From Deltaproteobacteria bacterium (lineage in GTDB: Bacteria > Desulfobacterota > Syntrophobacteria > Syntrophobacterales > Thermodesulforhabdaceae): a DNA stretch of 58,234 nucleotides. A program made the position numbers and the translations under genes. This document shows, piece by piece, positions 34,050 through 58,234 of this stretch. How positions within the stretch are numbered: position 1 is the first letter of the stretch; the number at the start of each line of letters is the position of its first letter. The notes beneath the pieces were generated by a model that was given only the letters and a program-made list of their open reading frames with translations, was not told where the DNA came from and searched no databases. The DNA lies in the NCBI GenBank assembly GCA_019309115.1, contig JAFDGW010000010.1:1-58234 (forward strand), written 5' to 3'.

Positions 34050-34829
34050 ATGCAATTATCAAAATACAACATAAAATTCCCTTTAATTGAGCCAAATCGA
34101 CTGGATCAAGACGAGGCATTCTTTTTTCTGTTTGAAAACGGAAATAAAACCAAAATACGCTTCCACGAATACGCGGAAATATACAAGCGTCCAGGGCTTT
34201 ATGAGCAGCTATTTTATCGACGACTCAAGTGTTGTTCTCCTCAGAAGGTTGTAGAAATACTGACCAGGGTTCTCAAAGATAATCTAACTCACGTGACAGA
34301 ACTCCGAGTGCTTGATCTTGGGGCGGGAAACGGCATGGTAGGAGAACAGCTTCACGCTCACGGAGTTGCTCGCGTTGTGGGGGTGGACATAGTGGAGGAG
34401 GCTCATATTGCATGTGAGCGGGACAGGCCCGGGATTTATGACGCCTATTACGTTTGCGATTTTACAAAGCTTGAAGAGTCCTTCAGGGACCACATAGCTT
34501 CTTGGCAGTTCAATTGCCTGACATGTGTAGCGGCGCTTGGTTTTGGTGACATTCCCGCCCGGGCTTTTTCCAACGCCTTCAATCTTATTTGCGATTCAGG
34601 ATGGATAGCTTTTAACATAAAGGATACCTTTGTCCTGAGAGAAGACAGAACAGGTTTTTCCAGACTTATCAGGGCCCTGATCAATCACGGAGTTCTTGAA
34701 ATCCATCATCTGGAAAGGTATCGCCACAGGATATCCATAGATGGGCGACCTCTGTTTTATTATGCTATAGTAGGTAAGAAGATAGATAATATACCAGAAG
34801 ATATAATTGATTCCATTAGAGTGTCTTAA
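34050..34829 (+). CDS. Class I SAM-dependent methyltransferase, substrate unknown
   Basis: The 259-residue protein has Rossmann motif I as [17 protein letters not shown] (about residues 84-99) and an acidic motif II at [11 protein letters not shown] later hydrophobic strand reads [12 protein letters not shown]. The N-terminal 80 residues are helical and charged. It resembles small-molecule or thiol methyltransferases, but nothing fixes the substrate. AGGGAGGG precedes the ATG. The next gene is a broken metK, the source of SAM, although the link may be chance. Confidence 0.75.
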
Positions 34830-34833
34830 AATC

Positions 34834-34861
34834 CGCCAAAAAGCCCAGGGCGATTTTGGCG
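34834..34861 (+). terminator. Hairpin after the methyltransferase
   Basis: CGCCAAAA (34834-34841) pairs with TTTTGGCG (34854-34861), and GCCC/GGGC pair inside it. It begins five bases after the methyltransferase stop. No T-run follows, so it may terminate weakly or serve as a leader hairpin for metK. Confidence 0.5.
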
Positions 34862-34894
34862 AAATTCTAAAATTTTACAGGGGAGGTTGCTTTT

Positions 34895-35757
34895 ATGTCC
34901 ATGAGTCGCTAAACCCGGGAGAAGGCCTCTTCGAAGAAATGGGTGCCGGCGACCAAGGACTCATGTTCGGCTTCGCCTGCGATGAAACTCCCGTCCTCAT
35001 GCCCATGCCCATCTACTACGCCCACAGAATCACAAAAAAACTCTCCGAAGTAAGAAAAAACGGCGCCCTCGACTTCCTTCGCCCAGACGGTAAAAGCCAG
35101 GTAACCGTCGAATACGAAAACGGAACCCCTATCCGAATTGATGCAATCGTCGTCGCCGCTCAGCACACACCAAACGTCTCCTATAACACCATCAAAGAAA
35201 GCATCATCGAAGAAGTTATAAAAAAGGTCATCCCAGAACACCTCATAGACAACAAAACAAAATTCTTCATCAACTCAACCGGCCGCTTCGTGATCGGAGG
35301 ACCCATGGCAGACACAGGCCTCACAGGTCGTAAAATAATCTGCGATACCTACGGCGGTCAGGGTAGCCACGGAGGCGGATGCTTCTCCGGCAAAGACCCC
35401 ACAAAGGTCGATCGAAGCGCCTCCTACATGGCAAGGTACGTCGCTAAAAACATAGTCGTAGCAGGTCTCGCCAAAAAAGTCGAAATCCAGGTGGCCTACA
35501 GCATCGGTGTTGCCGAACCCGTAAGCCTCATGGTCAATACCTTCGGAACCGGCACAATAAAACCCGATGATAAAATCGCCGAAATCATCAAAGAAATATT
35601 CAGCTTCAAACCCGCTAACATGATTAACCACCTCAAACTCCTCAGACCCATCTACAAAAAAACCGCCTGCTACGGCCACTTTGGTAGAAACGACCCAGAC
35701 TTCACATGGGAAAAAACCGATATGGTCGACTTACTCAGAGAAAAAGCCGGGCTCTGA
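34895..35757 (+). pseudogene. metK: 5'-deleted S-adenosylmethionine synthetase
   Basis: From about 34897 the frame encodes residues equivalent to about 108-384 of Met[67 protein letters not shown] and [10 protein letters not shown]. The first 100 or so residues, including the HPDK catalytic motif, are absent. A strong AGGGGAGG lies eight bases before ATG 34895, but that frame stops after five codons. This looks like the original start followed by an out-of-frame deletion. Third codon positions are dominated by C and A, unlike neighbours. A transferred copy, a recent deletion or an assembly error are all possible. It cannot make SAM alone. Confidence 0.8.
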
Positions 35758-35774
35758 CAAATGAATGGTATGGG

Positions 35775-35800
35775 GTTACTAACAGTTACTTGATTTTTTG
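35775..35800 (+). terminator. Weak terminator after metK
   Basis: GTTACT and AGTTAC pair with one mismatch around AAC, followed by TTGATTTTTTGATTTTATTT. The stem is short, but the T-rich tract is good. It begins 18 bases after the metK stop. Confidence 0.4.
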
Positions 35801-35856
35801 ATTTTATTTGCTTATTTGGATGCATGTACACAAGCGAGTTATGGTGTTATAGATTT

Positions 35857-36027
35857 ATGAGCTGTGGGCAACCCGAGGGGCGTGTCTCCGACGGTGTCAG
35901 GCAACGTAAGCCGTTACGTCTGACTCCACAGCTCATTGAAATGGATGTTCATCTGAGCAGAAATAGGAAGCTGTTAGTAGGAAAAAGGTAACGGCTGTCC
36001 AGAAACCCAAGAACGGTGGTTTCTTTT
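35857..36027 (+). ncRNA. Candidate structured non-coding RNA of unknown class
   Basis: ATGAGCTGTGG (35857-35867) and CCACAGCTCAT (35926-35936) form an 11-bp perfect closing stem. Inside it GTCAG (35896-35900) pairs with CTGAC (35920-35924), and ACGTAA pairs with TTACGT around GCCG, a three-way-junction shape. A second hairpin, AGAAACC/GGTTTCT at 36001-36024, followed by TTTTG, could end the RNA. It matches no riboswitch I can name. A palindromic interspersed repeat is the alternative. Confidence 0.35.
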
Positions 36028-36283
36028 GTGAGGAGAGGTGGGGGATTGAGTGAGCCTGTTAGTTTATATTCTGGTTTCTTCCTTTCTTCGTGGGACTCAG
36101 TCTAACTATCAGGCAACGCAGTAAGAACTTGAAGAGGCAAACGGAAAGGAGGAAGATGAGGAAGCAGTAGTTGAGCAGAACTACTTTTGTTATTATATGT
36201 TCTACTGCCATATCGTAAGATTTAGCATTTTCTTTATTACCATAGCTATTTTTTGTTTTTTCCTATATCTTGCTCGAGCGTAG
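36028..36283. other. Gene-poor gap upstream of the ilv promoter
   Basis: No supported gene. The decamer TCAGGCAACG at 36109-36118 repeats the one at 35897-35906. A 28-codon hydrophobic frame (36197-36283) has no ribosome binding site. It is part of the 662-base stretch between metK and ilvB. Confidence 0.5.
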
Positions 36284-36312
36284 TTGACACCACCCTTTTT
36301 TTTAATTAGAGT
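36284..36312 (+). promoter_or_regulatory. Candidate promoter of the ilv-psd-pssA-leu cluster
   Basis: TTGACA at 36284-36289 and TAGAGT at 36307-36312 are separated by 17 bases. The spacer includes a T8 run. The predicted leader to ilvB is about 100 bases. Confidence 0.5.
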
Positions 36313-36360
36313 TCAAAGCTCCCAAATTTTACAATTAAGTTGTCATTTTAGGTGTTCACA

Positions 36361-36423
36361 ATGACAAAAAATGGTTTAGGAAAGTTAAACATCTCAATTG
36401 AAAAGGGGTGTAATTTTTCATGA
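36361..36423 (+). CDS. 20-codon upstream ORF overlapping the ilvB start
   Basis: ATG 36361 follows TTTAGGTG at workable spacing. The frame reads [16 protein letters not shown] to a TGA that overlaps the ilvB ATG as ATGA. IlvB's own ribosome binding site (AAAAGGGG) is about 13 bases from its ATG, rather far. The short frame could therefore couple ribosomes into ilvB. It has two Leu and two Ile codons, so it is not a clear attenuation peptide. Confidence 0.3.
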
Positions 36424-38132
36424 AACTCAGGGGAGCCCAAATATTTTTTGAGTGCTTGAAAAAAGAGGGGGTTGAAGTCATTTTTGGCTATCCCGGTGGT
36501 GCGGTGTTGGATATTTATCATGAAATGCCGAACTACGATATCCGTCACATTCTGGTTCGTCACGAGCAGGGTGCCACTCACATGGCCGACGGCTATGCGA
36601 GGGCATCGGGTAAGGTAGGCGTTTGCCTGGTAACGTCGGGTCCTGGAGCAACTAATACGGTAACCGGCATTGCAACAGCATACATGGATTCCATCCCTAT
36701 AGTGGTATTTACCGGACAGGTTCCAACACCTCTAATAGGAAACGACGCCTTTCAAGAAGTGGACATTGTTGGAATTACCCGCCCCTGCACTAAACATAAT
36801 TACCTTGTCAAAGACGTTCGGCATCTTCCGCGTATAATCAAGGAAGCCTTTTACCTTGCTCGATCTGGACGTCCCGGCCCCGTGCTGGTGGATCTACCCA
36901 AGGATGTAATTCAGGCATCTAACAACTTCTCCTATCCCAACGAAGTGGAACTGAGAGGTTACAAACCCACCGTTGAACCTCACAAAGGCCAGATAAAACG
37001 CGCTGCAAGAGAACTCCGTAAGGCAAAAAAGCCGGTTATATACGCAGGTGGTGGAGTGATACATTCCAGCGCGAACAAAGAACTCACCCGCCTTGCCGAG
37101 ATGCTTCAAATACCCGTAACAACAACACTCATGGGACTGGGTGCTTTCCCGGCCGTAACGAAAAAAGGTTCCAAGGAACTACATCCGCTGTGGCTGGGTA
37201 TGCTCGGAATGCATGGTACTTATCGTGCCAATATGGCTGTAACCAACTGCGATGTGCTTTTTGCGGTAGGCGCTCGTTTTGATGACAGGGTTACCGGGAA
37301 GGTTGAGGGGTTTGCACCAGAAGCGACCATAATTCATATCGACATAGACCCGACGAGCATAAGTAAAAACGTGAAAGTTGACATACCGATTGTAGGTGAT
37401 TGCAAACGTGCACTAAGGCAATTGATTAAAATCTTTGAGGAAGAGCCTGTTGAGGACCTGGAAGCCAGAAGGGCCCCCTGGTTGGAGCAAATTCGGGAAT
37501 GGCGGGAAACATATCCGCTTGCTTATGAGCAAAAAGGTGACATCATAAGGCCTCAGTTCGTGGTGGAAAAAATATATGAGTTGTCCGAAGGGAATGCCAT
37601 TATAACCACCGAAGTCGGTCAAAATCAGATGTGGGCCGCTCAGTATTACCACTTTACCGAACCGAGAACCCTTCTAACATCCGGTGGACTTGGAACTATG
37701 GGCTACGGCCTTCCGGCCGCTATTGGTGCTCAGGTAGCCTGTCCAGATAAGCTGGTTATAGACATAGCCGGTGATGGTAGCATCCAGATGAACATTCAAG
37801 AGCTATCCACTGCAGTTTGTAACGATCTACCTGTTAAAGTAGCAATCCTCAATAACAGTTATCTCGGTATGGTGCGTCAGTGGCAGGAACTTTTTTACGA
37901 AAGGAACTATTGTGAAACCTGCCTAAGAGGGTCCCCAGATTTTGTAAAACTTGCGGAAGCCTATGGAGCCGTGGGCTTCAGGGTAGCAAAACCCGAAGAG
38001 GTTGAACCGGTGCTTAAAGAAGCTTTCTTGGTTAAAAAGCCAGTTATTATTGATTTTATTGTGGAAGAAGAAGAAGGCGTGTATCCTATGGTGCCGGCAG
38101 GAAAAACAATAAACGAAATGTTGCTGGTGTAG
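36420..38132 (+). CDS. ilvB: Acetolactate synthase, large (catalytic) subunit
   Basis: The ThDP enzyme of branched-chain amino acid synthesis condenses two pyruvates, or pyruvate with 2-oxobutyrate. The 570-residue protein has the ThDP glutamate in [19 protein letters not shown]/central-domain sequence around GLGAFP, and the ThDP-Mg motif in [15 protein letters not shown] followed by [12 protein letters not shown]. The QFFER-type region and the tail YPMVPAG are typical of anabolic AHAS. It is followed four bases later by the regulatory subunit ilvN. Regulation may involve the upstream short frame. Confidence 0.97.
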
Positions 38133-58025: not shown

Positions 58026-58234
58026 ATGGAAGAGAGATATCTTACACCAAAGGAAGCAGGAAAGCTGTTAGGTGTTTCTACGAGAACCATACAGAGATGG
58101 GACAAGAAAGGTTTGATCAAAGTTGTTCGCACACCAGCAGGAAGAAGACGTATTCCCTTATCTGAAGTTAGAAGGATTCTTGGAGAGAGGCAGAAGGCAA
58201 AAAGGGCTGTGATTTATGCAAGGGTTAGCTCTCA
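58026..58234 (+). CDS. tnpA: IS607-type serine transposase TnpA, 5' part
   Basis: The frame is open from ATG 58026 to the window end and gives 69 residues. A MerR-like helix-turn-helix (YLTPKEAGKLLGVSTRTIQRW, then TPAGRRRIPLSEV) is followed by RAVIYARVSS, the start of a serine recombinase catalytic domain. That N-terminal HTH plus serine recombinase order is the hallmark of IS607 TnpA. There is no ribosome binding site before the ATG. The element continues beyond the window, and its TnpB partner would be expected there. It inserted just after rsmI. Confidence 0.88.
   Translation, partial: MEERYLTPKEAGKLLGVSTRTIQRWDKKGLIKVVRTPAGRRRIPLSEVRRILGERQKAKRAVIYARVSS

Follow-up and report, generated by a model that had tools for sequence, protein, structure and literature searches.

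What is the strongly structured segment (35857-36027) that lies between ilvB and a truncated metK, in a gene-free stretch of the DNA of a Deltaproteobacteria bacterium of the family Thermodesulforhabdaceae? An earlier note on this DNA (a stretch of 58,234 nt, hereafter the window) had proposed a lone intergenic RNA of no known class. The gene-free stretch was confirmed, and so was the perfect 11-bp closing stem, in which ATGAGCTGTGG (35857-35867) pairs with CCACAGCTCAT (35926-35936) on direct reading of the sequence. The segment 35857-35935 folds at -35.4 kcal/mol (z = -2.78), with 3 out of 200 shuffles equally good, and the 201-nt stretch as a whole gives a z of -2.19. The Rfam scan suggested in that note returned no match at the locus: at gathering level, the sole match in the window is a tRNA (1854-1927), and none was found in 35700-36430 with E up to 10. 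The metK frame upstream (34807-35757, + strand, same strand as the feature; TIGR01034, profile positions 109-375 of 377) lacks roughly 108 residues at its N terminus. A related stretch of metK, 74% identical in DNA to that of the window, is present at C25:17367-18208.

The structured candidate forms the right half of a repeat of 222 bp (35773-35994, + strand) that is dispersed in the genome. Of 21 rows that matched in a DNA search of the bacterium's genome (G000; 72 contigs totalling 2.51 Mb), 17 are places where this repeat occurs, the window being one of them. The other four rows correspond to the second metK copy, to a different repeat on contig C23 (see below) and to two short fragments of the left end, from copies already included in the count. 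From the same genome, a covariance model of the RNA retrieved 22 matches, 18 of them with E<=1e-11. Eight copies are exactly 222 bp long; they start with GGGTT or a GGGTT-like motif (GG first) and end with ACGG, so that a GG dinucleotide is found at both ends in 8 out of 8. The remaining copies are truncated or longer. When the joined flanks of 10 copies were compared with the loci extracted around the copies, no match spanning an empty site was found. On contig C2, a 911-aa ORF with no Pfam match (L018:3065-5797) enters a left-truncated copy, which provides its last codons. By eye, the flanks of two other copies (L014, L013) resemble IS200/IS605-type right ends; miniature elements may therefore cluster at other TnpB ends.

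These copies bear directly on the proposal of a stand-alone host RNA. A riboswitch or small RNA of metK or ilvB would agree with the location between these two genes and with a fold stronger than that of shuffled sequences, but the copies lie beside unrelated genes (rplQ, rplY, a sigma-70 gene, dnaJ and others), none occurs in four other genomes of the family, and Rfam gives no match. A metK/ilvB riboswitch is therefore ruled out by the dispersed copies, and any host RNA of this kind, which would require co-option of just the window copy, is extremely improbable. The earlier note had itself named scattered copies as the mark of a repeat element, and scattered copies are what we found, together with a conserved fold. 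The orphan-RNA reading of the locus is thus removed as false. The second, terminator-like hairpin that it described does exist (about 36001-36027, + strand, paired in the fold) but lies beyond the end of the repeat, in host DNA, and was not flagged by terminator prediction; it is perhaps the old metK terminator.

The same note had also pointed to the recurrence of TCAGGCAACG, which indeed occurs exactly twice in the window (35897 and 36109), against a chance mean of 0.14. The second occurrence, however, belongs to an unrelated repeat remnant (36058-36275, no strand assigned) that is 82% identical to a piece of contig C23, and this C23 homologue reads CCAGGCGACG at the position of TCAGGCAACG. 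The recurrence is therefore ruled out as a part of the feature and is, from these sequences, most likely due to chance. This remnant is itself dispersed and looks transposase-like by eye only; the 143-aa ORF overlapped by its C23 copy (L024:2969-3186) has no Pfam or NCBIfam match.

We then looked at the origin of the 222-bp repeat. Contig C65 (L025) carries a 2.1-kb element with an IS607-type transposase gene and a broken tnpB, to which the repeat is related at both extremities. The left end of the C65 element (L025:1198-1233) is 78% identical to that of the repeat over 36 nt, and its final 46 nt are 79% identical to the right end of the repeat. In the window, the left end runs to the decayed start of tnpA (35773-35840, + strand, inner limit approximate). 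It is followed by a TnpB tail remnant of 26 residues (35851-35928, + strand), which overlaps the RNA and matches the C-terminal query from the C65 TnpB at residues 164-189, with 77% identity (tblastn). Two longer copies (L019 and L020, on C25 and C1) retain 16-23 residues of tnpA and, from their sequences, look like intermediate deletions. The repeat is thus non-coding, multi-copy and deletion-derived from a larger element, as are MITEs.

The C65 TnpA (204 aa) looks intact and reaches 186 bits with NF033518 (cut-off 110). It combines a Resolvase domain (PF00239) with a MerR-type domain (PF12728), and such a serine (resolvase) TnpA with a MerR-like domain places the parent in the IS607 family. 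Its tnpB is no longer intact: it contains an in-frame stop and changes frame. The C-terminal piece of the protein matches Cas12f1-like_TNB above cut-off; taken alone, this piece scores 84.2 bits with guided_TnpB, below the whole-protein cut-off of 100, and 34.5 with IS607_TnpB (cut-off 350). The best profile for the piece encoded at L025:2605-3294 is Cas12f2, at 95 bits, below the cut-off of 450. The structured RNA spans the 3' end of this tnpB and is 87% identical to the repeat over 86 nt. In the G000 assembly, no intact tnpB of the C65 kind was found: the C-terminal and the N-terminal part each gave a single match, and a second copy of the N-terminal part was sought in G000 and not found. 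Several contigs break in or near the repeat (C13, C19, C21 and C65), so an intact tnpB could be hidden in this genome. At the end of the window (58056-58232), a MerR-type domain shares about 41% identity with the beginning of the C65 transposase and possibly marks another IS607 element.

To examine the distribution of the element, we searched other genomes. Of 59 genomes searched for the repeat DNA, G000 alone gave a match. From 395 genomes of the phylum, only two match the TnpB C-terminus at E<=1e-20, namely G000 and G285, and three match the RNA model. Among these three, G285 gives two strong matches; the third (G073, E 4.7e-4) was judged spurious, being an A+T-rich stretch with neither TnpB nor DNA similarity to the element on C65. 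On one G285 contig (C83), the tnpB 3' end and the RNA, taken together, match the C65 element with 80% identity over 284 nt; on another (C142), which begins 28 residues upstream of the RNA, identity is 83% over 214 nt. In the C65 parent and in the G285 C83 element, both relatives of the autonomous type, the RNA is therefore found at the tnpB 3' end and at the right end of the element. Within families, one out of five genomes matches in that of G000 (G000 itself) and one out of two in that of G285. A contig search with the TnpB C-terminus yielded 12 distant TnpB relatives, nearly all from Micrarchaeota (31-50% identity). Plasmid records gave nothing, nor did viral contigs searched with one exact degenerate pattern.

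Since the same RNA extends across the tnpB 3' end in the C65 parent and in G285, it is best read, on this sequence evidence, as a TnpB omegaRNA (reRNA) scaffold of the IS607 type. The earlier description of a structured RNA without an Rfam match therefore stands, now with comparative support, but the RNA would belong to a known class. We consider, with a probability of about 0.9, that a 222-bp IS607-family element, non-autonomous and derived by deletion, encodes such a scaffold at its right end, and that this right end is the feature in question.

We next compared the copies at the RNA level. The predicted core (35857-35936; this and the following features are all on the + strand) is bounded by the closing stem and contains, according to the comparative fold, hairpin A (35877-35880/35886-35889) and hairpin B (35896-35902/35918-35924). 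In the loop of hairpin B, CCGTTAC (35911-35917) would form the 5' half of a pseudoknot, whose 3' half in the alignment is GTAACGG (35988-35994); the latter includes the terminal GG and ends the scaffold. This GG (35993-35994) is presumed, by analogy, to be the right crossover dinucleotide. The guide predicted from IS607 TnpB architecture, with an assumed length of about 20 nt, would occupy host DNA at 35995-36014.

In a first alignment of 13 sequences (A1), 99.7% of 351 cells show the proposed pairing and three pairs are changed on both sides. A second alignment of 18 sequences (A2), which adds partial and decayed copies and leaves out truncated copies on C37, C49 and C21 as well as weak matches (C37:54, C70:54, C3 and G073), is paired in 97.6% of 463 cells, with six pairs changed on both sides. 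None of 500 shuffles of A2 reaches its count of both-side-change cells or its covariation score, in a comparison that ignores relatedness. As the miniatures are close kin, the main independent comparison is that of the miniatures with the tnpB elements of C65 and G285, and it reveals a U-A to C-G change in the closing stem and another such double change in the pseudoknot. The seven pseudoknot pairs are intact in 16 out of 18 sequences, the exceptions being C2 (6/7 pairs) and C36 (3/7 pairs), and when the 78-nt core was subjected to simple shuffling, 104 of 20,000 shuffled sequences contained a perfect 7-nt complement of the tail. The comparison thus supports the three helices and the pseudoknot; conservation inside the tnpB 3' end could partly be coding conservation. 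The nested ACGTAA/TTACGT hairpin of the earlier note is present in the letters of the window, but its pairing is not conserved: the 85.9% of 78 cells that pair do not exceed the level of shuffles, and one pair is broken in 7/13. The pseudoknot was preferred to it.

A pseudoknot that joins a hairpin loop to the nucleotides next to the guide, here predicted from the alignment, is a feature of omegaRNAs. According to the available text of PMC10711439, IS607 elements recombine at GG dinucleotides, the nucleotide flanking their right end is part of the reRNA scaffold, and a pseudoknot between guide-flanking nucleotides and the apical loop is required. In its structural points, this published design fits the element described here. 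This agreement is relevant to another interpretation, in which the repeat is mere DNA whose palindromes serve transposase recognition, the RNA fold having no role. The right end does double as a transposase end, the copies are without tnpB and the tnpB of the assembly is broken. However, the pseudoknot joins distant parts whose two sides change together and matches the known reRNA design (PMC10711439), and the closing stem stops 58 nt short of the right end of the element. We therefore regard a role as DNA alone as unlikely.

The genomic setting was surveyed for 15 copies by taking the nearest upstream ORF of at least 120 aa (at L011, an antisense ORF overlapping the element was taken as spurious). 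Such an ORF is present for all copies except that on C49, and it has the same direction as the RNA in 14 out of 14 cases. Twelve of these genes have family matches, those of L018 and L020 having none: an Rnf subunit, two FKBP-type isomerases, a CobB/CobQ-type amidotransferase, a sigma-70 factor, ribosomal protein L17 (behind RNA polymerase alpha), a thioesterase, ribosomal protein L25, an outer membrane efflux protein, FtsJ, DnaJ and metK. A downstream gene is in view for 12 copies, 7 in tandem and 5 convergent. Since the latter are uninformative, the sense count that matters is 7 out of 7. It might be argued from these counts that the host has recruited the copies as sense 3' UTR elements, which would process its mRNAs or make them more stable. 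Nevertheless, the GG target is strand-specific, so that the bias might arise from target choice alone, and the C65 parent is antisense to its nearest upstream ORF of size. Co-option of this kind thus seems quite improbable. The same arrangement is open to a more speculative interpretation, which we find doubtful: lying in sense behind housekeeping genes (rpoA-rplQ, rplY, the sigma-70 gene, dnaJ, metK), the copies would form a dispersed set of guide RNAs made by read-through, each supplying TnpB in trans with a guide from its own flank, and one nuclease would protect, or would once have protected, many gene-less insertions.

Under the preferred reading, an IS607-type omegaRNA scaffold on a miniature element, the 222-bp form has kept both ends of the parent and lost tnpA and nearly all of tnpB. 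Its scaffold consists of the closing stem, two hairpins and the pseudoknot, which ties the guide-adjacent 3' end to a hairpin loop. The sequences establish the repeat, its limits, its relationship to a tnpA-tnpB element and a fold with compensatory changes; the steps that follow are inferred. The copies would be moved in trans by the IS607 serine transposase through GG crossovers, and their RNA would be produced by transcriptional read-through. A TnpB of the same family might then bind this RNA, take the host DNA just past the GG as guide (from 35995 for the window copy) and cut empty sites, so that the insertion would be protected. TnpB processes its own mRNA into omegaRNA, and cleavage of empty sites has been viewed as a means of transposon retention, as set out in the available text of PMC10278001. 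As the assembly yielded a single tnpB of this family, a broken one, the guide function may be extinct in G000. The RNA family, having no match in the Rfam search, would help annotation to spot TnpB guide scaffolds without an adjoining tnpB. If the copies prove to be transcribed, one could test whether transposons without genes retain a guide RNA because TnpB, acting in trans, prevents their loss.

MITEs and PATEs are non-autonomous derivatives of insertion sequences. Like these, the element described here is short, multi-copy and gene-less and has the ends of its parent; unlike them, it is without long terminal inverted repeats and keeps a full guide-RNA scaffold. Stand-alone omegaRNAs and gene-less relatives of IS605 have already been described, and we therefore claim no novelty of kind. 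As for IS607 miniature elements, the available text of PMC3852290 and PMC3542288 describes no guide scaffold, and our literature search, of largely non-subscription sources, found no description of such elements with one. The ISDra2 TnpB omegaRNA (IS200/IS605 group) also has a pseudoknot (PMC10097598, available text); it shares with the RNA reported here a pseudoknot near the guide and a guide outside the element, but IS200/IS605 elements use a Y1 transposase, whereas a serine recombinase and GG ends are found here. RAGATH-18 is a different class of IS607 reRNA (PMC11061315, available text), likewise placed at the right end of IS607 TnpB elements with stem-loops and pseudoknots. According to the same text, it is independent of the coding sequence, whereas the present RNA overlaps it; the latter has no Rfam match (E up to 10) in a library that may not contain RAGATH-18. 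A close parallel concerns IS607 elements such as ISXfa1, the latter using a GGG target motif according to the available text of PMC10711439. Both have a serine transposase, GG at both ends, a right-end reRNA crossing the boundary and a pseudoknot; in contrast to the ISXfa1 type, the abundant form here is without tnpA and tnpB, and its RNA, with no match in Rfam, overlaps the 3' end of tnpB.
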